Shown: positions 24,697 through 41,105 of the stretch, piece after piece
How positions within the stretch are numbered: position 1 is the first letter of the stretch
Layout: the number at the start of each line of letters is the position of its first letter
DNA from: Immundisolibacterales bacterium
GTDB taxonomy: Bacteria; Pseudomonadota; Gammaproteobacteria; HK1
NCBI GenBank assembly: GCA_026712715.1
Contig: JAPOPW010000064.1
Span: forward strand, 1 to 64,000
Length of the DNA stretch: 64,000 bases
Reading direction: 5' to 3'
The notes under the pieces: model-generated
Databases searched by the model: none
What the model saw: the letters and a program-made list of their open reading frames with translations, nothing else
Told to the model about the DNA's origin: nothing
Program-made: the position numbers and the translations under genes

Positions 24697-26001
24697 TCAG
24701 ACCGGCGACCGGGAACCGTGTCCGTGAGCCATCGCACCGGCGCGATGCGGCCTCGCGGCCGGGACGAGAAGAGCCGCCGCCAGGTCTTCCAGGCTCTCGA
24801 GGTTGTGGACGGGGCGGAACTCGTCCACGTGAGGGAGGAGGGCGCGGATCCCGGCCGCCTTCGGCTCGAAGCCTTCGTAGCGGAGCAGCGGGTTCAGCCA
24901 GACCAGCCGGCGGCACGACTTGCGGAGGCGTTCGATCTGCGGTCCGAGACCCTCGCCCGCATCCCGGTCGAGTCCGTCGGAGATGAACAGGACCACCGCG
25001 CCCTGGCCGCACACCCGCCGGGACCAGTCGCGGTTGAAGCGGTCGAGACACTGGCCGATCCGGGTACCGCCGCTCCAGTCCGCCACCGCCTCGCCGGTGC
25101 GCTCGATCGCCGCATCGACGTCGCGGTCCCGAAGCTGGCGGGTGACGTTGGTGAGGCGGGTGCCGAAGACGAAGGAGTGCACCCGGGTACGGTCGCGGGC
25201 GAGGGCGTGCGCGAAGTGCAGCAGCACCCGCGAGTAGCGGCGCATCGATCCCGAGATGTCGCAGAGCACCACGATGGGTGCGGGCTTGCGGACCTTGCGC
25301 CGGTGAACCAGCAGGACTTCGCCGGCGCCGCGCCGAAGGCTCCTGCGCAAGGTCGTGCGCATGTCGACGAGCGCGCCGCGCGAGTGCGGCCGGTAGCGGC
25401 GCGTCGGGGCCGGGGGCACGGCGAAGCGCAGCTTCGCGATGGCCGCTTTCGCTTCCGCGAGCTCCGCGGCCGACATCTGCTCGAAGTCGCGCTCGCGAAG
25501 GATCTCCCGGTCCGACCAGGTGAGGGTGGCGTCGAGCTCCACCTCCTCCTCTTCGCGTACCCGGGCTTCGCGCTCGGCTCCGGCGAAAAGCGCCTCGCTC
25601 AGCCGGCGGCTGAGAGGTCTCGCGTCGCCGCGCGGCGGGGTCTGCACGGTCGGCAGGAGCAGGCTCGTGACCCGTTCGAGGAGCCGGGGATTGCGCCAGA
25701 AGACGTGGAACGCCTCATCGAACAGCGGACGCTGGTCGGCCCTTCGGACGAATACCGCGTGCAGGGTCCAGTAGAAGTCGTCGCGCCGGGCGAGACCGGT
25801 CGCCTCCACCGCCCGAAGGGCGTCAAGAACCGCGCCCGTTCCTACCGGGAGCCCGGCTGCACGCAGGGTGCGGGCAAAGTGCATGAGATTGGCCGCAAGG
25901 CGGCCCGGGGTCTCGGCCGGGCGTTCTCGCAACGCCGCGGCGTGAGCCGGGTTCCCGGGCGCCGCGGACTCTCCGTGCGAAACGTCAGGCGGCGCCCGCA
26001 A
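24697..26001 (-). CDS. VWA domain-containing protein (CoxE-like)
   Basis: 434 aa; PIVVLCDISGSMRRYSR MIDAS motif; directly downstream of moxR in the cox cluster. Confidence 0.88.
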   Translation of the reverse strand: MRAPPDVSHGESAAPGNPAHAAALRERPAETPGRLAANLMHFARTLRAAGLPVGTGAVLDALRAVEATGLARRDDFYWTLHAVFVRRADQRPLFDEAFHVFWRNPRLLERVTSLLLPTVQTPPRGDARPLSRRLSEALFAGAEREARVREEEEVELDATLTWSDREILRERDFEQMSAAELAEAKAAIAKLRFAVPPAPTRRYRPHSRGALVDMRTTLRRSLRRGAGEVLLVHRRKVRKPAPIVVLCDISGSMRRYSRVLLHFAHALARDRTRVHSFVFGTRLTNVTRQLRDRDVDAAIERTGEAVADWSGGTRIGQCLDRFNRDWSRRVCGQGAVVLFISDGLDRDAGEGLGPQIERLRKSCRRLVWLNPLLRYEGFEPKAAGIRALLPHVDEFRPVHNLESLEDLAAALLVPAARPHRAGAMAHGHGSRSPV

Positions 26002-26917
26002 CCCGCAGCTCGCGTCTGATCTGCTCGATGATGTTCGCCGCCTCGCTGCCCCGGATCCGGGCGATGTCGTCCTGGTACTTGAGGAGCGAACCGAGGGTGT
26101 CGTTGACGACGTCCGGCGAAAGGGCGAGCACGTCGAGCTGGGTGAGCGCCTGCGCCCAGTCGATGGTCTCGGCGACGCCCGGCGACTTGAAGAGGTCCAG
26201 CTCGCGAAGGCCCTGCACGAAGGCGACCACCTCCCGGCTCAGCGCCTCCGGGGTTCCCGGCGCCCGCACCCGCAGGATCTCGAGCTCGCGCGCCGCCTCC
26301 GGGTAGTCGACCCAGTGGTAGTAGCAGCGCCGCTTGACGGCGTCGTGGATCTCGCGCGTTCGATTCGAGGTGATGACCACCACCGGCGGTTCGCTCGCCG
26401 CGATCGTTCCGATCTCGGGAATCGTGATCTGGAAGTCGGCGAGCAGCTCCAGAAGGTACGCCTCGAACGGTTCGTCCGCCCGGTCGAGCTCGTCGATCAG
26501 CAGCACCGGGGCGCCCGCGTCGTCGGGATTCAGGGCGTCGAGAAGAGGGCGCTCGATGAGGAACCGGCGCGAGTAGATGTCCTCCTCGACCGACTCGGCG
26601 GAGGACGGCCCGCCGCCGCCGCGGCCGAGCTCGGCGAGCCGGATGCGGATCATCTGCCGCGGATAGTTCCACTCGTACACGGCCGACGCGACGTCGAGAC
26701 CCTCGTAGCACTGAAGTCGCACGAGGCGCCGTCCAAGCACGCGTGCAAGGACGCGCGCGACCTCGGTCTTTCCCACGCCCGCCTCGCCTTCCAGAAAGAG
26801 CGGGCGACCCATCCGGAGGGTGAGGAAGACGGCGGTGGCGAGGCTCCGTTCGGCGACGTAATCGCCCTCCTCGAGCCGGGAGAGAGTCTCGTCGACGGAT
26901 GCAGGCAGAGCGTTCAT
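25985..26917 (-). CDS. MoxR family AAA+ ATPase (CoxD-like)
   Basis: Start MNALPASVDETL; FLEGEAGVGKTEVAR, VLLIDELDRADEPFEAYLLELLAD, VVITSNRTREIHDAVKRR. Confidence 0.92.
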   Translation of the reverse strand: MNALPASVDETLSRLEEGDYVAERSLATAVFLTLRMGRPLFLEGEAGVGKTEVARVLARVLGRRLVRLQCYEGLDVASAVYEWNYPRQMIRIRLAELGRGGGGPSSAESVEEDIYSRRFLIERPLLDALNPDDAGAPVLLIDELDRADEPFEAYLLELLADFQITIPEIGTIAASEPPVVVITSNRTREIHDAVKRRCYYHWVDYPEAARELEILRVRAPGTPEALSREVVAFVQGLRELDLFKSPGVAETIDWAQALTQLDVLALSPDVVNDTLGSLLKYQDDIARIRGSEAANIIEQIRRELRVAGAA

Positions 26918-27105
26918 TCGTGCGGTACCGCAGCCCCGGAATCCGATGTGGGAATCAAGCTCCGAGCACCTTCGCTCACACTCCCGCCCCCCCGGATCGG
27001 GCGTCCGGGCCGCAGCGGGGCCGCCCTCGAAGCAACGCCGGCAATCGGGCGGCGGGTCGGAGGAAATCTCCGGTCCGCCGCCCTTCGAAAACGGCTCGCC
27101 TTCGC

Positions 27106-27903
27106 TCAGCCGGCCGCCGCCGCGACTGCGCGCCGTGCCATCACGCCGACGAGATGGGCGCGATAGTCGGCACCCGCATGGATGTCCTCGTTCAGACCGT
27201 CCGCGGATACGGAGGCTCCGGCGAGCGCATCCGCGCTGAAGCTTCCGGCGAGCGCCGCTTCCATCGCACCGACGCGGAAGACCCGGTCCCCCGCGCCGGT
27301 CACCGCGACCCGGACCCCGCCGCTCGTCTCGGCCGCCATGACCCCGACGATGGCGTAGCGCGAGGCGGGGTTGGGAAACTTCGCGTACGCGGCGCGCCGT
27401 GGAATCGGAAAGCTCACCGACACGATGATCTCGCCCTCCTCGAGGGCCGTCTCGAACAACCCGGTGAAGAAGTCGTCCCCGGCGATGGTCCGGCGATCGG
27501 TCCGGATGCTCGCCCCGAGGCCGACCACCGCGGCCGGATAGTCGGCGGCCGGGTCCGCGTTGGCTATCGATCCCCCGATGGTCCCGCAGTTGCGCACCTG
27601 CGGATCGCCGATGCCCTCCGCGAGGGAGGCGAGGGCGGGGATTGCGGCCTGCACCTCGGGCGACGATGCAACGTCCGCATGCCGCGTCATGGCGCCGACG
27701 ACGATCGACTCGCCCTCCCGGCGCACGCCGTCGAGCCCGGCAATCGAGCCGAGGTCGACGACGTCGGACGGACTTGCGAGCCGCTGCTTCAGGGTGGGAA
27801 TGAGGGTCTGGCCTCCCGCCAGCACCTGGCCGTCCTCGGCCGCCGCGAGTGCCGCGGCCGCCGCTTCGAGGGTGCCGGGGCGGTGATAGTTGAACTCGTA
27901 CAT
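27106..27903 (-). CDS. FAD-binding medium subunit of xanthine-oxidase-family hydroxylase (CoxM-like)
   Basis: [41 protein letters not shown]. Confidence 0.93.
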
Positions 27904-27933
27904 GGTCTCGCTCCTTTACGCCCGGTCCGGACC

Positions 27934-30279
27934 CTATTCGCTGAGCGCCCGCCACACCGCCTGCGGGGTCGCGGGCATGTCGATGGCGTTCGTGCCGAGA
28001 GCGTCGGTGATCGCGTTCATGACCGCGGCCGGCGCCGCGATGGCCCCCGCCTCGCCGCATCCCTTGACTCCCAGGGGGTTGTGGGGACACGGGGTGCACG
28101 TGGTCTCGACCGTCATGTCCGGCAGGTCGTCCGCCCGCGGCATGGTGTAGTCCATGAACGAACCGGTCAGCAACTGGCCGTCCGCATCGTAGGCGCAGCC
28201 TTCGAGCAGCGCCTGCCCGACCCCGTGCGCCACCCCTCCGTGCACCTGACCCTCGACGATCATCGGGTTGACGACGTTGCCGAAGTCGTCGACGGCGACC
28301 CAGTTCACGATCTCGGTGGTCCCGGTCTCCGGATCCACTTCGACCTCGCACACGTGGGTGCCGGCCGGGAACGTGAAGTTCGCCGGATCGTAGAACCCGG
28401 TCTCCTCCAGGCCCGGCTCGAGCTCGTCGAGGGGGTAGTTGTGGGGCACGTAGGCGGAGAACGCGACCTCGGCGATGTTCATGCTGCGGTCGGTGCCCGC
28501 GACCGCGAAGTCTCCGCCGGAGAACTCGATGTCCTCCTCCGACGCCTCCAGGGTGAACGCCGCGATCTTGCGTCCCTTCGCGATGATCTTGTCCATCGCC
28601 TTGACGAGGGCGGAGCCGCCCACCGCGAGCGAGCGCGAACCGTACGTGCCCATGCCGAACGGCGTCTTCTCGGTGTCGCCGTGCACCACCTCGACGCTCT
28701 CGAACGGGACGCCGAGGTAGTCGGACACGAGCTGCGCGAACGTCGTCTCGTGCCCCTGTCCGTGGCTGTGCGACCCGGTGTAGACGAGCACGTTCCCGGT
28801 CGGGTTGAAGCGGATGCCGCCCGACTCCCAGAGGCCGACTCCGGCCCCGAGCGACCCGACCACCTGGGACGGGGCGATGCCGCAGGCCTCGATATAGGCG
28901 CTGAGGCCGATCCCGCGGAGCCTGCCCCTTGCGCTCGAGGCCTCGCGCCGGGCGGCGAAATCTCCGTAGTCCGCGATCTCGAGCGCGCGGTCGAGGGCGA
29001 GCCGGTAGTTCCCGGAGTCGTACTCGAGCGCGACTTTGGTGGGGTAGGGGAAGGCGTCGGCGGGAATGAAGTTGCGCCGCCGCAGCTCCGCGGCGTCGAT
29101 TCCCATCTCGCGTGCCGCCTGGTCGACGATGCGTTCCACCACGTAGGTCGCCTCCGGGCGCCCCGCCCCGCGCAGCGCGTCCACCGGGGTCGTGTTGGTG
29201 AACACCGCCTTGACCTCGCAGTAGATGGCCTCGGTGGTGTACTGGCCCTGGAGCAGGGTGCCGTACAGGTACGAAGGAACGCAGCTCGCGAAGGTCGAGA
29301 GATAGGCGCCCATGTTCGCGAGGGTCGAGACCTTGAGGCCGAGGAACCGGCCGTCCGCGTCGAGCGCGAGCTCGACGTGGGACTCGTGGTCGCGCCCGTG
29401 CGCGTCGGCGACGAAGGACTCGGAGCGGTCCGCCGTCCACTTGACGGGGCGGCCGATCTTTCCAGCGGCCCACAGGACCGCGGTCTCCTCCTGGTAGATG
29501 AAGATCTTGGAACCGAATCCGCCGCCGACGTCGGGGGCGATGACGTGCAGCTTGTGCTCCGGCGCGATCTGGATGAAGGCCGCGAGCACGAGGCGGTGAA
29601 TGTGCGGATTCTGGCTGGTGAGCCGCAGGGTGTAGTCGCCGCTCGCCGGGTTGAAGTCGCCGATCGCCGAACGCGGTTCCATCGCGTTCGGGATCAACCG
29701 GTTGTTGACGAGGTCCAGGCGGGCCACGTGATGGGCGCGGGCGAACGCGTCGTCCGTCGCCGCGCGATCGCCGATCTCCCAGTCGTAGCAGAGGTTCCCG
29801 GGCGCGTCGGAGTGGATCTGCGGAGCCCCGTCCGCGAGCGCATCGCGCATGGACACGACGGCCGGAAGCGGCGCGTAGCTCACCTCCACCTGCTCCGCGG
29901 CGTCGCGCGCCGCCCGTGCGCTCTCCGCGACCACGATGGCGATCGCGTCGCCTACGTGGCGAACCGTATCGACCGCGAGAACGGGGTGGGGCGGGGCCTT
30001 GTGCGGCTCGCCGTCCTTGCCCGTGACCTGCCAGCCGCAGATGAGCGTGCCGATCTCGTCCGCCGCGAGATCCGCGCCGGTCAGGACCGTCACCACCCCG
30101 GGCGCAGAGGCCGCGGCGGTCGTGTCCAGGGTGAACGAGGCGTGGGGGTGGGTCGACCGCACGAACGCGGCGTGCGTCTGATGGGGGAAGGTGGTGTCGT
30201 CGGTGTAGTCGCCGGACCCGGTGAGGAACCGTTGGTCTTCGGTGCGGGGCACGGAGGCCCCGATTCCGCTCTCAGCCAT
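27934..30279 (-). CDS. Molybdopterin-binding large subunit, xanthine-oxidase family (CoxL-like, form II-like)
   Basis: ATG at 30279 ([15 protein letters not shown]); [43 protein letters not shown]; lacks the form I motif AYxCSFR. Confidence 0.93.
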
Positions 30280-30280
30280 T

Positions 30281-30757
30281 TCAGCTACCTCCGCGCATCG
30301 TGCTCGCACCGGCGAGGATCGACTTCACGATGTTGTGATAGCCGGTGCATCGACAAAGATTTCCCTCCAGCCACTCGCGGACTTCGGGGCCCGTCGGATC
30401 GGGGTTGCGGGCCACCAGGTCGAGTGCGCTCATAACCATGCCGGGAGTGCAGAAGCCGCACTGCAGGCCATGGTTGTCGCGAAACGCCTCCTGCATGGGA
30501 TGGAGCTTTCCGCCCTCGGCCAGTCCTTCGATGGTGACGACGTCGGCGCCGTGCGCCTGGGTCGCGAGCATCGTGCACGCCTTGACGGAGCGCCCGTCCA
30601 CGTGCACGACGCACGCGCCGCACTGGCTGGTGTCGCAGCCCACGTGGGTTCCCGTCAAGCGCAGCGTCTCACGCAGCAGTTCCACCAGGAGAGTCCGATC
30701 CTCGACCTCCTCGGAGATCGCCCTCCCGTTCACGTTCATGGAGACATTTACCGGCAT
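30281..30757 (-). CDS. 2Fe-2S small subunit (CoxS-like)
   Basis: [45 protein letters not shown]. Confidence 0.95.
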
Positions 30758-30762
30758 GCGCC

Positions 30763-31245
30763 TTACTCCTCTTTCTCGTCCGGTTCGCCCTCCTCGGAGG
30801 GCGCCTCCGGCGTGACGATTTCCACGAAGCGGGAAAAGAAATCCGTTCCGAGCTTGCGGGCCGTCCCGCCGATGAGGCGTGAGCCCACCTGGGCGATCTT
30901 GCCCCCCGGCTGGACCCGCGCCACATATCGGAGGACGGTCCCGTCGTCCGCCGTCTCCAGGCTCACGTCCGCGCTTCCCGAAGCAAACCCGGCCGCGCCG
31001 CCCCGGCCTTCGCCGGAAAGAGTATAGCTTTCCGGAGGGTTCAGATTGGAGACCGCGATCCGGGTCCTGAAACGGGCCTTGACCGGCCCGACCTTCGCCA
31101 GCACGTCCGCGTCGAACTCGTTCTCGCTCACCCGTTCCAGGGTCTGGCAGCCGGGAATGCACCGGCCGAGGATCACCGGGTCGTTGAGCGCCTCGAACAC
31201 TGCCTCCCGGGGCAGGGGAACGTGGAATTCGCCGCTGAGATCCAT
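30763..31245 (-). CDS. SRPBCC / CoxG-like protein
   Basis: [37 protein letters not shown]; position at the head of the cox cluster. Confidence 0.9.
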
Positions 31246-31373
31246 GTGGTTCCGCTCCGGTCGGACGGCCGAAGTATAGCCCGGAATGCGGTCCGGTCCG
31301 CCGGCCGGCGCGCGCCTCCCGCGGGCCGTGCTAACGTTGACGGGCCAGGGCGCACACACCGGGAAGCAATGCG

Positions 31374-32407: not shown

Positions 32408-32503
32408 TCTCCCCCCGGGAGAGGGGCTTAGGGGGAGGGAAGGACGATCGTCGGCCCGCCGGCGGGGAGATTCCTCTGCACCGGCCCCACTCCCGGGGAG
32501 AGA
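32408..32503. repeat. Imperfect inverted repeat (REP/BIME-like) in intergenic region
   Basis: Arms TCTCCCCCCGGGAGAGGGGC (32408-32427) and GCCCCACTCCCGGGGAGAGA (32484-32503), 18/20 complementary. Confidence 0.65.
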
Positions 32504-32671
32504 GAGGAGAATGCACGCACGCTCCCTGCCGCCGGCCAGCGTGAAATGTCCCTGCCGTCCGGCATTGCACAGGTTCGCGGGAGCTCGATAAGAGCTATAA
32601 TTGCCGGTCCGGCGGACGGCGGACCGCAGGTCCCCGTCCGCCACTCGGCGACGGCGAAGAGGAGGCGGCGA

Positions 32672-33370
32672 GTGGCCGAGCCCCGCATGTATCCCGGTAC
32701 GGGGCAGGACGAACGGACCACGTTCGCGCCCTATTCCGCGTTCGACATCCCGGCCGATCTGCGCGAGCTCCATGGCCGCTACGATGTCGAGGCGGTCGCC
32801 CGGCGGGTGCGGAACTTCCGGTACGCCGAAGAGTGGATCATGATGATTCTCGGGGGCTGGGTCGCGACCGTGCCCGAGCTTCCGGTGAAGACCGGGCTCG
32901 GCCGGATCATCTGGGAGTCGGCGCAGGCGGCCGACAAGCTCGGCAATCGGCTGCCCGAGCTTCGGTGCGGCACCCGTTCGGTAGCCGCATCGGAAGCGCC
33001 GAACGAGGGTTTCGCGGCGTTCGTCCGTTCGGTCGCGGAGCCCGAGTCCCCCGCGCAGACCATCGAGAAGCTGACCGGGGTCTTCGACGTGTTCCTCCCC
33101 CACCTCGCGGAGAGCTACCGGCGCATGGCGTCGGAGACCGATCCGATCGCGGACGCGCCGACCATCAAGATCCTCGACGAATCGCTGGTGGACGCGCGCC
33201 GGCACATCGCCTGGGGCCGCGAAGTATTGGATACGCTTTGTCGGGGACGAGAAGAGAGGGAACGCCGAAGCCGGCGGCGGTCGATGCTCGAGGCCTGCCT
33301 CGTCGCGTGCGGAGGAGTCACCGGAGAGCTGACCGTGGCCGGGGAGTTCGAGCCTGGACAAGGGAGCTGA
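32672..33370 (+). CDS. Ferritin-like superfamily protein of unknown function (first of a pair)
   Basis: GTG after strong SD (GAAGAGGAGGCGGCGA-GTG); helical protein [24 protein letters not shown]...[17 protein letters not shown]; adjacent to a second ferritin-like gene. Confidence 0.6.
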
Positions 33371-33374
33371 AGGC

Positions 33375-34358
33375 ATGAAGAGATTCATCTCGCACGAGGA
33401 GCTTGCACGCGACAGCCGGTTCAAGCGGGCGTCCTCGCGTGGCCGGCTGCTCGAATCGCTGCCGGATGACGTGGACGGAGTGGTCGCGCTCCTCGAGCAG
33501 GTCGCTCCGAAGCTGCGCGAGCGGGTGAAGGGCACGGAGCTCGAGCCGGTGTTCGACGAGCTCGGACCGGGCTACCTCTTCCTCACCCAGTTCGGGGCGC
33601 TGCGCCCCGAGGATCCCAACGTGGAAGTGCAGCTCAAGATGCGCCTGCACAGCATCTTCGTGGGCGAGATGCAGGCGCTCGAGGGAGCGGGACGCACCCT
33701 CTGGGATTTTCCGGACGCACCCTGGGAGTTCCGGATGAACATGGCCCGCCAGTGCTGGGACGAATCGCGGCACTGCCAGGTCTTCGAGAAGCTGCTCGAT
33801 CACGTCGGGGTCGGGGTCGGCGACTATCCGGAGGCCACCGTCCTCTTCGAAGCGGCGTGCGCGGACGATCCGACCCTGCGGGTCGCCGGGGTGAACCGAT
33901 GCCTCGAAGGGCTCGCGTGCGACGCCTTCCGGGCGATGATCGAGTACGCGAAGGAAGCCGACGATCCGGTCATGGAGCAGGCCATCGACTTCGTCCTCGC
34001 CGACGAGCTGACCCACGTACGCTTCGGGAGCAACTGGGTCAAGCAGTTCACCCGCGACAATCCCGAGAAGTTCAAGGAGGCGAAAGCGTTCCAGCGCGAG
34101 GTGGAGCGCCGGTTCTCCGTCGGCTCCGGCCGGTCGGGACGCGGCGACGCGACGATCGGCATTGCACGCGAGGAACGCCTCGAGGCCGGGTTCACCGAGG
34201 AGGAGCTGCGCGAGATCGCGGAGATCGCGGACCGGGGCCCGAGCCGGGGCACCCTCGTCGAGGCGGCAACCGTGCTCAAGGCCCGGCACCACGCACGCCT
34301 GCGCGGCGAGCCGGTGGAGTCGATTCCGGGACCGGCCGTAACGGCCGCCGCGGACTGA
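33375..34358 (+). CDS. Ferritin-like di-iron protein (DUF455-like)
   Basis: 327 aa; [47 protein letters not shown] carry E/ExxH-type di-iron ligands. Confidence 0.75.
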
Positions 34359-34383
34359 GCCGCGGAGCGGGGCCGGAACTTCG

Positions 34384-34893
34384 ATGCAGGCGAATTGGGA
34401 ACCCCTGGCACTCCGGGAGACGCACCTCCCCGAGGAGGAGTGGAGCGGGCGGGGGCCGGAGCGGGGGCCGGAAATCCGGTCCTTCTGCGACGACGCCGTC
34501 CGCGAAGCGGTCGCCATCGCCGACGATCACTTCACCGAGAAGGACGGGACGGTGTTCGCGGGCACCCACGTGCTTCTCGACGTCTGGGGCGCGCACCACC
34601 TCGACGATCCGGAGTACATCGAGCGCGCGATGCGCCGGGCGGCCGCGGCATCGGGTGCGACGGTGCTCCATGTTCACCTCCATCGCTTCGGCGACGGCGG
34701 CGGGGTTACCGGGGTGGCGGTGCTGGCCGAGTCCCACATCAGCGTCCATACCTGGCCCGAGCGGGGCTTCGCGGCCTTCGACGTGTTCATGTGCGGCCGG
34801 TGCCGGCCCGAGCTCGCGGCGGAAACGCTCCGGAGCGCCCTCGATCCGGAGCGCGCCGAAACGTCGATCACCCGCCGGGGGGTCGTGGCCTGA
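34384..34893 (+). CDS. speD: S-adenosylmethionine decarboxylase proenzyme
   Basis: GVAVLAESHISVHTWPERGFAAFDVFMCG (ES cleavage site, catalytic Cys region); ~55-aa N-terminal extension. Confidence 0.92.
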   Translation: MQANWEPLALRETHLPEEEWSGRGPERGPEIRSFCDDAVREAVAIADDHFTEKDGTVFAGTHVLLDVWGAHHLDDPEYIERAMRRAAAASGATVLHVHLHRFGDGGGVTGVAVLAESHISVHTWPERGFAAFDVFMCGRCRPELAAETLRSALDPERAETSITRRGVVA

Positions 34894-35750
34894 GCACCCC
34901 CCGGGCGTTCGCGGAGACGCTCTTCGACGGTTATCGGCAGGAGCTCCGGGTCGAGCGCGTCTACCTCGAACGGAACACCGATCTCCAGTCCCTCCTCATC
35001 TTCCACAACCGGTGCTTCGGGAGGGTCATGGTGCTCGACGGCATCGTGCAGACCACCGAGGGGGACGAGTTCATCTATCACGAAATGCTGGCGCACGTGC
35101 CCCTGTTCGCGCACGGGACCGCGCGCCGCGTGCTCGTCGTCGGCGGCGGGGACGGGGGAATGCTCCGCGAGGTGCTTCGCCACCGTGAGGTCGAGCGCGC
35201 CGTGCAGGTGGAGGTCGATTCCGCAGTGATCGACATGTGCCGGGAGCATCTTCCGAACCACTCCGCGGGTGCGTTCGACGACCCGCGGGTCGAGATCGTC
35301 ATCGCGGACGGCGCGCGTTTCGTTTCCGAAACCCGCGAACGGTTCGACGTCATCATCTCCGACTCGACGGACCCGGTTGGCCCCGGTACCGCTCTTTTCC
35401 GTCCCGAGTTCCATGCGGCGTGCCGCCGCTGCCTTTCTCCGGGGGGCGTGCTGGTCACCCAGAACGGGGTGGCGTTTCTCCAGCCGGAGGTCGCACGCAA
35501 TTCGGCCCGCAGTTTCTCCCGGACGTTCCGCGACTGGCACTTCTTCAGTGCCGCGGTGCCGACCTATGCGGGCGGCGTCATGCTCTTCGGATGGGCGACG
35601 GACGACCCGGCCCTGCGGGAGGTTCCGGTCGAGACCATTCGCGAACGCTACGCGCCGTCCGGCATTCGTACCCGTTACTACAACCCCGAAGTGCACGTCG
35701 CTTCGTTCGCGCTCCCGCAGTACGTGCGCGAGCTCGTCGGCAAGGACTGA
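34890..35750 (+). CDS. speE: Spermidine synthase (polyamine aminopropyltransferase)
   Basis: VVGGGDGGMLREVLRH, VEVDSAVIDMCREHLP, DVIISDSTDPVGP; N-terminus ETLFDGYRQELRVE; probable CTG start at 34890 overlapping the speD stop. Confidence 0.93.
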   Translation: MSTPRAFAETLFDGYRQELRVERVYLERNTDLQSLLIFHNRCFGRVMVLDGIVQTTEGDEFIYHEMLAHVPLFAHGTARRVLVVGGGDGGMLREVLRHREVERAVQVEVDSAVIDMCREHLPNHSAGAFDDPRVEIVIADGARFVSETRERFDVIISDSTDPVGPGTALFRPEFHAACRRCLSPGGVLVTQNGVAFLQPEVARNSARSFSRTFRDWHFFSAAVPTYAGGVMLFGWATDDPALREVPVETIRERYAPSGIRTRYYNPEVHVASFALPQYVRELVGKD

Positions 35751-36857: not shown

Positions 36858-37225
36858 TCAAAGGTTCCTCGTTGGTTTGCCTGCCGGCGCAAGGTCCGGC
36901 GCCGCCGTCGTCTGCCCGCGCCGGTCGTCGGGCATGGTGGCGGCTTCCCGATCGAACCGGGATGCGGCGGACGGGTCCGGACCCGCCGCGCGGGCGCCCC
37001 GGCGACCCCGTGGCCACCACGTCCCGGCATCCCCGGTCATCCCCGTCCGACTCCTCCGATGTACCCGCCGGGGGAGACGCGACTATACTCGGGACGCTGC
37101 CGCTACCGCCTGTTTCGGAGTGGATGCCGTCCCCGGGGGATCGCGCGGCACGATTTCGGCGCTGCGCCCGGCCGCGGGGGCGGGCCGAGGAATCGAGGCT
37201 GAAATTCACCTGGGAGAGAAACGAA

Positions 37226-38215
37226 ATGCGCAAGAATCTGAAGTGGGCGGCGGTCACGGTAGCGGCGGTATCCGTCGTCGGCTGGGCGGAGCTGGCCGCG
37301 GCCGAGGCGAGCGTCAAGCTTCGCATCGGGCACGTCACCACCATCGAGGCGATCGCCGGCCAGGGATCGACCAGGCTGGCCGCGGTGGCCAACGAGCTTT
37401 CGAACGGTGCCATCGAGATCGAGATCTTTCCGAACGGCCAGCTCGGAGGCGAGCTCGAAATGGTCTCCCAGGTTCGCCTCGGCGAGCTCGACATGGCCAT
37501 GGTGGGCTCCGGGCTCGCGGCCGCCATCGAGCCGACCTTCTCCATCACCGAGCTGCCGTTCATCTGGAAGGACCGGGAGTCGGCCTGGGCAGTGCTGAAC
37601 GGTCCGGTCGGCAACGGGATCCTGGCCCTCATGGAGCCCAAGGGCATCAAGGCGCTCTCTTGGGGAGTGTGGGGGTTCCGCGGCTTTCTCACGAACGGGT
37701 TCCCGATCGGGTCCGTGGACGACATGAAGGGCCGCAAGATCCGGATCGTCGAGAACCCGCTCTACGTTCAGACGATTCGCGCCTTCGGCGGCAACCCGGT
37801 GCCCATGGCCTGGCCCGAGGTCTACTCCGCCCTCCAGCAAAAGGCCATCGACGGAGTGGAGACCAACTACCACGGCATGGCGAACGCCAAGCAGTACGAG
37901 GTTGCGACGCACCTCGCGGTGTCCAACCACATCTTCACCTCCACCGTGTACCTGATGAACCTGGACGTGTACGAATCCCTCTCCGCGGAGCACCAGGAGA
38001 TCATCATGAAGGCGTCGCGCGCGGCCGGCGAGACCATGCGCGACGGCGCCCAGAAGGCCAACGAGGACGCCATCGCCCTCATGGCTGCGAACGGCATCAC
38101 GGTGACGCATCCCGAGCGCGACGCGTTCGCGGCCCGGGCGCAGGAGGTGCACGACAAGTTCTCCGTCTTCGTCGGCCCCAAGGTCCTTAGCGCGGTCAAG
38201 GCCGCCCAGGAATAG
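37226..38215 (+). CDS. TRAP transporter substrate-binding protein (DctP family)
   Basis: Signal peptide MRKNLKWAAVTVAAVSVVGWAELAAA; LRIGHVTT...FPNGQLGGELEMVSQVRLGELDMAMVGS. Confidence 0.93.
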   Translation: MRKNLKWAAVTVAAVSVVGWAELAAAEASVKLRIGHVTTIEAIAGQGSTRLAAVANELSNGAIEIEIFPNGQLGGELEMVSQVRLGELDMAMVGSGLAAAIEPTFSITELPFIWKDRESAWAVLNGPVGNGILALMEPKGIKALSWGVWGFRGFLTNGFPIGSVDDMKGRKIRIVENPLYVQTIRAFGGNPVPMAWPEVYSALQQKAIDGVETNYHGMANAKQYEVATHLAVSNHIFTSTVYLMNLDVYESLSAEHQEIIMKASRAAGETMRDGAQKANEDAIALMAANGITVTHPERDAFAARAQEVHDKFSVFVGPKVLSAVKAAQE

Positions 38216-38297
38216 CGGCGCCCCTCTCGTACGGGCGGAAGAGGGTGCGATCCTCTTCCGCCCGGAGGGCTTGCTCGCGTTCTTCGAGGGAGGGGCG

Positions 38298-39137
38298 ATG
38301 CCGCTCGAACACGTAAACGGGGCCAACCTGTACTTCGAGTCGACCGGGGAGGGCGTTCCGGTCGTCCTCTGCCACGAGTTCGCGGGCGACATGCGGGCCT
38401 GGGAGCCCCAGGTCCGGTATCTCGCCCGCCGCTACCGCGTCATCGCGTTCAATTACCGGGGATACCCGCCTTCCGACGTGCCCGATGATCCGGGCGCATA
38501 CAGCCCGGACGGCCTGGTTGCGGACCTCCTCGGACTGCTCGACGGGCTCGGCCTCGACCGGGTCCACCTCGCGGGACTCGCCACCGGCGGCAACCTCGTG
38601 CTCAACTTCGCCATCGCCCATCCCGCGCGGGTGCGGAGCCTCGTCGTGGCCGGGGCGGGGGCGGGCACGGTCGACCGCTCCGCCTGGCTCGAGGCGGCCG
38701 GGCGATTTGCGGACGACATCGCCCGTGACGGAAGCGAGGGCATCGTCGCGAACGTCGCGGATGCCCCGCAGCGGGTGATCTTTCGAACCAAGGACCCGCG
38801 CGGCTGGCAGGAGTTCGTGGACGGCATGCGCCGGCTCTCGCCGGCGGGCGCCGAACACGTCATGCGCGAGGTCCTGATTCCCCGCGCCCCCGTCTTCGCG
38901 CTTGCCGAGGGCATTCGCCGGCTCGCCATGCCGATCCTCGTGATGTGCGGCGACCGGGACGGGCCGGCCTCCGAGCCCAGCCGCTTCATCCGCGACACCG
39001 CTCCGCACGCGGGGCTGGCCGTCGTCCCGATGTGCGGCCACACCCTGAACTCCGAAGAGCCGGATCTCTTCAATCGGATCGCGGGCTCGTTCCTTGCCGC
39101 GGTCGACGCGGGACGATGGGGCACGTGGCGCGCTTGA
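38298..39137 (+). CDS. Alpha/beta hydrolase
   Basis: 280 aa; VVLCHEFAGDMRAWEPQ, FNYRGYPPSD, C-terminal MCGHTLNSEEP. Confidence 0.85.
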   Translation: MPLEHVNGANLYFESTGEGVPVVLCHEFAGDMRAWEPQVRYLARRYRVIAFNYRGYPPSDVPDDPGAYSPDGLVADLLGLLDGLGLDRVHLAGLATGGNLVLNFAIAHPARVRSLVVAGAGAGTVDRSAWLEAAGRFADDIARDGSEGIVANVADAPQRVIFRTKDPRGWQEFVDGMRRLSPAGAEHVMREVLIPRAPVFALAEGIRRLAMPILVMCGDRDGPASEPSRFIRDTAPHAGLAVVPMCGHTLNSEEPDLFNRIAGSFLAAVDAGRWGTWRA

Positions 39138-39203
39138 CCCGGGACCCGGCATGAAGAATCGGTTCGGACCGGACCGAACGGCGAGCGAGGAGGGCCCGGC
39201 GCG

Positions 39204-39809
39204 ATGATGATGCCCATTCCGGGCGAGGTGAAGATCCTCGTCTTCCTTCTCGTGGTCGCGGCCCTGGTCGCAACCTGGCTCCTCCGCGAGGAGTGGGGGG
39301 GCCGCGGGGGCGAGGGCGGGATCGACTTCTGGAAGATCGTCGAGGACACCGTGAGCCATTTCCTGCTGCTCGCGATGCTCGTCTCCGCCGCCCTCCAGGT
39401 CATCGTGCGCTACCTCCTGTCCGACACCATCACGATGCCCTGGACCGAGGAGTTCGGCCGGCTGGTGATGGTGTGGGGAGCGCTCTGGGGCGCCGCCCAG
39501 CTCCAGCGAAGCGACGACCACATCAGCATGTCGGTGGTCTTCGACCTGCTTCCGCCCCGAGCGCAGCTCGCGGTGCGCCTCTTCGGCGACCTCGTCACCC
39601 TCGGCGTGCTCGTACCCATCGTCTGGTACGGCTGGAAGAGCGCGGTGGCCCTCGACATCATGTACACGATCGCGCTCGGCATCCCACTGTCCGTGTTCGC
39701 CTATCCCATCCCCGTCGCGGGAGCGCTCATCGTTCTCCATACCATCTCGCTCATGGTCCGCCGGATCCGCGGAGTGCCGATCCGGTCGAGCGTCATCACG
39801 GAGATGTAG
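39204..39809 (+). CDS. TRAP transporter small permease (DctQ family)
   Basis: Four hydrophobic segments; TMPWTEEFGRLVMVWGALWGAA. Confidence 0.9.
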   Translation: MMMPIPGEVKILVFLLVVAALVATWLLREEWGGRGGEGGIDFWKIVEDTVSHFLLLAMLVSAALQVIVRYLLSDTITMPWTEEFGRLVMVWGALWGAAQLQRSDDHISMSVVFDLLPPRAQLAVRLFGDLVTLGVLVPIVWYGWKSAVALDIMYTIALGIPLSVFAYPIPVAGALIVLHTISLMVRRIRGVPIRSSVITEM

Positions 39810-39812
39810 CGC

Positions 39813-41105
39813 GTGTCTCCCCTCGCCGTCGTCCTGGTCGTCTTCTTCAGCCTGTTCTTCCTGCGGGTACCGATCGCGATCGTCCTGATCGCATCGTCGC
39901 TGGTCGGGCTCTGGCTCGCCCCGACCGGGATCAAGTTCTCGACCATCCCGACCACGATGTGGCAGGGGATCAATCACTTCGTCCTCATGGCGATCCCGTT
40001 CTTCATCCTGATGGGCGACCTCGCCCTCGCGAGCGGGGTCACCCAGCGGCTCGCCAACCTCGCCAAGGCGTTCGTCGGTCACGTGGCCGGGGGACTGGCG
40101 CACGTCAGCGTCATCGTGAACATCATCATGGCCGGCATGTCGGGCTCGGACCTCGCCGACGCCGCGGCGACCGGAAAGCTGTTGATTCCGGGCATGCGCC
40201 GCGCCGGATACCCGGCCTCCTACGCGGCATCGATCATCGGCGGCGCGGCCACCATCGGACCCCTCATCCCGCCGAGCATCGCATTCATCATCTTCGCCGC
40301 GGCGACGGAGACGTCGGTCGGCCGGCTCTTCCTGGGAGGCGCGATACCGGGCCTGTTGCTCGGGATCTTCCTGATGGTGCAGGCCTACGTCGTCGCCCGC
40401 CGGAACGACTATCCCCGCGAGCCCCGCATGCCCTATCGCGAGCGCGTGCGGGCGACCGCGGCCGGCCTGCCGGTCCTGATCATCCCGATCATCGTGCTCG
40501 GGAGCATCCTGACCGGCATCGCGACGCCGACCGAAGCGGCGGTGCTCGGCGTGATCGCCGTCGCACTGGTGGGCGGTCTGTTCTACCGCGAATTGACGGC
40601 AAAGAGCTTCGCGCGCGAGATGTTGAGCACAATCAAGACGATCGGCGCGGTATTTCTCATCATCTCGGCCGCTGCGGTCTTCGGGCGGGTCCTCACCCTC
40701 TATGGCGCGGCCGATGCGCTGGCGACGTGGCTCACCGGAATCACCGACGAGCCCATCGTGTTTCTCCTCGGCGTCAACGTCATCTACCTCCTGCTCGGGA
40801 GCATGGTCGACACGGTTCCCATCCTGCTCGTCTTCGTGCCGATTCTCATGCCGACGGTCGAGGCCCTCGGAATCGACGTCGTCCACTTCGGCGTCATCAC
40901 CGTGTTCAACCTGCTCATCGGGCTGATCACGCCGCCCTATGGGCTCACCATGTACCTGCTGTGCCGGATCACCGGCATCTCTCTCCAGCAGTTCTGGCAG
41001 CACATGTGGCCCATCTTCCTGACGATGATCGTGGCCCTGCTCCTGGTGACGTTCTTTCCCGTCCTCACCACGTGGCTCCCGAATCTCGTGATGCCGGTGC
41101 GATAG
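39813..41105 (+). CDS. TRAP transporter large permease (DctM family)
   Basis: 430 aa; multiple TM segments; MSGSDLADAAATGKLLIPGMRRAGYP, PPSIAFIIFA, DVVHFGVI. Confidence 0.95.
   Translation: MSPLAVVLVVFFSLFFLRVPIAIVLIASSLVGLWLAPTGIKFSTIPTTMWQGINHFVLMAIPFFILMGDLALASGVTQRLANLAKAFVGHVAGGLAHVSVIVNIIMAGMSGSDLADAAATGKLLIPGMRRAGYPASYAASIIGGAATIGPLIPPSIAFIIFAAATETSVGRLFLGGAIPGLLLGIFLMVQAYVVARRNDYPREPRMPYRERVRATAAGLPVLIIPIIVLGSILTGIATPTEAAVLGVIAVALVGGLFYRELTAKSFAREMLSTIKTIGAVFLIISAAAVFGRVLTLYGAADALATWLTGITDEPIVFLLGVNVIYLLLGSMVDTVPILLVFVPILMPTVEALGIDVVHFGVITVFNLLIGLITPPYGLTMYLLCRITGISLQQFWQHMWPIFLTMIVALLLVTFFPVLTTWLPNLVMPVR

Follow-up and report, generated by a model that had tools for sequence, protein, structure and literature searches.

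Closest described systems

In the phenylacetyl-CoA epoxidase PaaABCE, PaaA is the catalytic subunit, with the ligands E42, E72, H75, D126, E155 and H158, and PaaC is structural; the two have the same fold and are 17% identical (PMC4498308). The window (the whole 64,000-nucleotide stretch of DNA that was analysed) contains a four-gene operon whose first two genes encode ferritin-like proteins, named FlnA and FlnB in the present analysis. Like PaaA/PaaC, FlnAB would combine a putative catalytic di-iron subunit with a metal-less ferritin-like paralogue, and the sizes are similar. The ligand pattern and spacing of PaaA are close to those of FlnB, and PaaC is the best structural match of FlnA. However, FlnB belongs to DUF455 (PF04305), whereas PaaA and PaaC belong to PF05138. 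The PF05138 model (PaaA_PaaC) did not match FlnB at E<=1 and only weakly matched 7 of 59 members (best 0.011), which places FlnB outside that family. Furthermore, no paa-type operon surrounds FlnAB, the gene order of the pair is free, and neither a PaaB bridging subunit nor a PaaE reductase was found among the window neighbours or the conserved neighbour clusters.

The toluene 4-monooxygenase (T4MO) hydroxylase shows the division proposed for FlnB and FlnA, with a catalytic alpha and a metal-less beta subunit, and both of these appeared in the fold searches. Nevertheless, its alpha subunit is much larger, it has a dedicated operon, and no sequence similarity to FlnAB was detected. The best fold match of FlnB is the cyanobacterial aldehyde-deformylating oxygenase (ADO), to which FlnB also has a weak PF11266 similarity far below the cut-off; unlike FlnAB, this is a single-subunit enzyme without an inactive partner. 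The last two genes of the operon resemble an ordinary speD-speE spermidine operon with a normal SpeD (TIGR03330) and SpeE (TIGR00417), but such operons normally lack ferritin-like genes.

Organization of the four-gene operon

The four genes lie on the + strand. FlnA (32672-33370; 232 aa, GTG start) is a ferritin-like paralogue whose di-iron site is incomplete and the proposed structural partner subunit, and FlnB (33375-34358; 327 aa, ATG start) is a DUF455 ferritin-like protein and the proposed catalytic subunit. They are followed by speD (34384-34893; 169 aa, ATG start), for a Bacillus subtilis-type AdoMet decarboxylase, and speE (34890-35750; 286 aa, CTG start), for a spermidine synthase. 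FlnA and FlnB are separated by 4 bp and FlnB and SpeD by 25 bp, and SpeD and SpeE overlap by 4 bp. The first-pass annotation had described four same-strand reading frames with exactly this spacing, preceded by a strong Shine-Dalgarno sequence, and all of them are present; the sequence AGGAGG (32659-32671, + strand, read from the sequence) stands 5' of the FlnA GTG at 32672. The apparent CTG start of speE at 34890 overlaps the speD stop, and CTG is likewise found in both congeners, that is, in three species in all.

Compared with the two congeners, substitutions pile up at codon position 3 in FlnA, FlnB (29/22/104 by codon position) and SpeE, which supports the coding status of these three genes. 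SpeD showed a weaker third-position bias, and the ~50 residues at its N terminus were variable. SpeD scored 124.8 bits against TIGR03330 (curated cut-off, 75.65) and carries the ESHxxVHTWPE cleavage/active-site motif. SpeE scored 328 bits against TIGR00417 (curated cut-off, 249.55) and was also recognized by the NF002010 equivalog model. Judged by these family models, SpeD and SpeE are intact, ordinary members of their families.

FlnB carries a complete putative di-iron site

FlnB matched DUF455 (PF04305) with 94.6 bits, against a gathering cut-off of 34.3, over model positions 64-246 of 247, and all 59 members of the FlnB alignment matched this family. In the Pfam search it also weakly resembled R2 and aldehyde decarbonylase (PF11266), the latter far below the cut-off. 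Within DUF455, FlnB forms a branch of its own, extended at the N terminus and accompanied by a degenerate partner; the DUF455 relatives typical at class level share only 27-33% identity with FlnB. A literature search found no biochemical characterization of DUF455.

The full di-iron motifs claimed earlier for the second ferritin-like protein were found as the set E98, E130xxH133, E178 and E211xxH214, whose six ligands are invariant in 59 of 59 FlnB sequences. The AlphaFold model is a helical bundle (pLDDT 92.3, pTM 0.90) with N- and C-terminal helical extensions outside the four-helix core. Its nearest Foldseek match in the PDB was ADO, followed by PaaC/PaaA, T4MO alpha and R2lox, and bacterioferritin was also listed; the E-values were weak to modest (0.004-0.01), as is usual for helical bundles, and these matches serve as fold-level leads. 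The ligand set on a predicted four-helix bundle suggests that FlnB is a ferritin-like di-iron carboxylate protein with a predicted metal site. Matches to Crov588 and RNR in the PDB sequence search were rejected as short, weak helix matches.

FlnA is a degenerate paralogue of FlnB

FlnA matched no model in Pfam and NCBIfam and did not exceed the DUF455 cut-off; DUF455 was weakly matched by 11 of 47 FlnA members. When the FlnA and FlnB profiles were aligned with hhalign, a probability of 88.6 was obtained (E 2.7e-6, 16% identity), and by this comparison the two proteins share ancestry, FlnA being a distant paralogue. The first-pass annotation had regarded the first protein as half-degenerate. 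The degeneracy is borne out, but it goes further than was thought: in the profile alignment, the FlnA of the window has S, A, L and A at the FlnB positions E130, H133, E178 and E211, and no ligand position is invariant among the 47 homologues. A GGWxATxPExxxK motif and RLPELR are conserved instead in the 47-member alignment. The AlphaFold model of FlnA is a confident helical bundle (pLDDT 84.7). The model and structure searches that had been proposed as a check thus gave DUF455 and ADO as the nearest family and fold for FlnB, and for FlnA the non-catalytic subunits PaaC (4iit_C, 3pvr_C) and T4MO beta (3dhg_B), which came first in Foldseek against the PDB. As for FlnB, the E-values were modest (0.004-0.01) and the matches serve as leads at the level of the fold.

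The pair is kept across phyla

Approximately 490 genomes, ranging from the same genus to the phylum, were searched with FlnA, and 94 with FlnB. Within these genomes both genes were confined to the genus, besides DUF455 relatives of 27-33% identity and a single weak match resembling FlnA (E 1.6e-4). The GTDB contigs were scanned with three FlnB orthologues; the best 80 loci were kept, and 156 further weaker FlnB relatives were left out. These best 80 loci belong to the genus of the window, to many Myxococcota (57-66% identity) and to Acidimicrobiia/Actinomycetes (40-57%). In 49 of them, spread over Myxococcota, Actinomycetota and the gammaproteobacterial genus of the window, FlnA adjoins FlnB. 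The order is B-A in 33 of these pairs and A-B in 16, with a 4-bp overlap in most. Since the adjacency is kept across phyla though the gene order reverses, FlnA and FlnB are likely to be a functional pair. The earlier idea of an active and an inactive ferritin-like protein working together is accordingly well supported at the level of sequences and models, by ligand-complete and ligand-less related proteins that are adjacent across phyla in both orders.

The FlnA and FlnB trees both placed the window clade beside Myxococcota. A mirror-tree correlation (r 0.93 for all pairs; 0.50 within Myxococcota) was discounted, as it is confounded by shared ancestry. Among the best 80 loci, one Myxococcota FlnB clade has no adjacent FlnA, and FlnB may therefore also work by itself or with a partner encoded elsewhere.

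Some individual loci deserve mention. Myxococcota genomes often carry several copies of the pair family. At L033:1-2409 the order is FlnB-FlnA-FlnB', where FlnB' comes from the solo clade and the FlnA-FlnB' order is that of the window. At L082:8001-9632, in an Acidimicrobiia MAG, the FlnA groups with Myxococcota, which indicates a transfer or a mis-binned contig; an apparent natural FlnB-FlnA fusion at this locus was rejected, as a frameshifted FlnB reads on into FlnA. The plasmid search returned a single DUF455 protein and no FlnA.

Proposed function of FlnAB

We consider it likely that FlnAB is a PaaA/PaaC-like two-subunit di-iron oxygenase or oxidase outside PF05138, for which we infer iron binding, heteromer formation and oxygenase chemistry. 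FlnB would be the catalytic subunit of an O2-activating enzyme and would bind two irons via E98, E130/H133, E178 and E211/H214. FlnA, a ferritin-like paralogue that has lost the metal site, would be its obligate non-catalytic partner. After reduction by an external electron carrier, FlnB would use O2 on a small organic substrate for hydroxylation, epoxidation or desaturation. DUF455 proteins are widespread, and the present branch has a widely kept metal-less paralogous partner; a new, testable two-subunit di-iron oxygenase family is thus proposed for Myxococcota and Acidimicrobiia.

FlnA might instead be an independent protein that serves FlnB, for example as a chaperone or metal-delivery factor, without being its subunit. 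The conserved GGWxATxPExxxK motif, which is no ligand set, would suit such a role; however, FlnA shares ancestry with FlnB and is matched best in fold by structural subunits, and we regard this explanation as unlikely.

Multicomponent oxygenases, unlike storage ferritins, typically have a metal-less paralogue as a partner. This bears on a second possibility, that FlnB is an iron-storage or peroxide/oxygen-scavenging protein of the ferritin, Dps or rubrerythrin kind with no oxygenase activity on a substrate. The ferritin-like fold and the bacterioferritin among the Foldseek matches agree with it, but the best fold matches are oxygenases (taking R2lox with ADO, PaaA/PaaC and T4MO), and the helical extensions at both termini also speak against it. 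Such a role for FlnB appears quite improbable.

Linkage to speD and speE is confined to one genus

The first-pass annotation had coupled the di-iron pair to aminopropyl polyamine synthesis and had proposed looking for the four-gene order in other genomes. Among the best 80 loci, speD and speE flank flnAB only in the genus of the window, and neither SpeD nor a canonical SpeE was found near the pair in any of the 78 other loci. The order therefore does not recur outside the genus, which tells against the proposed linkage. Within the genus, flnAB-speDE is kept in three species, one of them represented by a single-contig chromosome of 5.09 Mb, and the genes are probably co-transcribed. However, most of the surrounding ~20 kb is also syntenic within the genus, and because of this general synteny the three species do not count as independent cases.

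The whole-genome search of 43 other pair-carrying genomes found no AdoMet decarboxylase in 42 of them and no spermidine synthase above the curated cut-off in any; these genomes are mostly draft MAGs, and incompleteness cannot account for 42 of 43. The sub-threshold SpeE matches lay mostly within long open frames of ~400-1800 codons and were taken to be fused-type relatives. The general function of FlnAB thus cannot need spermidine, and a polyamine pathway was rejected as that function. In G007, a same-family relative, speD is found on a different contig from speE, and FlnAB is absent. Since the linkage is confined to one genus and this relative has a split speD and speE without FlnAB, the linkage tells little of the function of the pair; most simply, it arose once, in this genus. 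An operon found in a single genus can hint at a pathway that comparison across genomes fails to bear out.

A single pathway in which FlnA and FlnB oxidize the spermidine or related aminopropyl amine made by SpeD and SpeE would agree with the compact same-strand arrangement kept in three species, with the intactness of SpeD and SpeE, and with an Orn/Arg decarboxylase family gene in the genome of the window. Against it stand the restriction of the linkage to a larger syntenic block in one genus, the lack of SpeD in 42, and of an above-cut-off SpeE in all, of the 43 other pair-carrying genomes, and the FlnB of the genus, whose ligands and general sequence show no peculiar divergence (57-66% identity to Myxococcota FlnB); we hold it to be highly unlikely. 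Highly unlikely, too, is that, in this genus, a transferred two-subunit di-iron oxygenase was recruited to the spermidine operon and oxidizes, e.g. hydroxylates, spermidine to a modified polyamine that bacteria are not known to contain.

Gene neighbourhoods of the pair

The neighbourhoods were variable and pointed to no substrate. In ten Myxococcota loci (L046, L047, L048, L055, L058, L063, L070, L072, L074 and L075), a TetR-family gene lies directly upstream (0-52 bp) of flnB-flnA, which suggests inducible expression. In ten Actinomycetota loci (L090:8861-9409 and nine others), the gene that immediately follows the FlnA-FlnB pair encodes a conserved protein of ~183 aa without a Pfam match, a possible third component in these loci. 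A 4Fe-4S ferredoxin gene was found 30-45 bp upstream of flnB in L088 and L098, and in L053 and L061 a cytochrome c gene precedes flnB by ~100 bp; their products are possible electron donors to the pair. Such neighbouring carriers fit an O2-using di-iron enzyme and name no substrate. No reductase gene was constantly linked to the pair among the examined loci.

In the window, a Cox-type molybdenum hydroxylase cluster occupies 24700-31281 on the - strand, with a coxE-like gene (24700-26238) and genes for an FAD subunit, the large subunit (27934-30309), a 2Fe-2S subunit and CoxG (30763-31281), and is conserved in the genus. A link between FlnAB and these genes was rejected: coxL-family genes near FlnB in six Myxococcota loci are only ~27% identical to that of the window and are thus different genes. 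At 37208-41102, an alpha/beta hydrolase gene is flanked by DctP and DctM of a TRAP transporter. A defence system was also rejected, there being no PADLOC match.

A REP/REPIN-like element upstream of the operon

The REP-like intergenic region noticed earlier was confirmed as a dispersed palindromic element. The repeat search placed it upstream of the operon at 32408-32503, as a pair of CTCTCCCGGGGGGAGA-type palindromes in inverted orientation, their starts 80 bp apart. A search of the genome for a Y1 transposase (PF01797) gave no match. The motif occurs in ~10 copies in the genome at <=1 mismatch (4 exact and ~6 with one mismatch), compared with 2 matches in all for the reversed-pattern control. 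Copies are also present at G000 C12, C29, C33, C38 and C40, often as inverted pairs ~80-110 bp apart.
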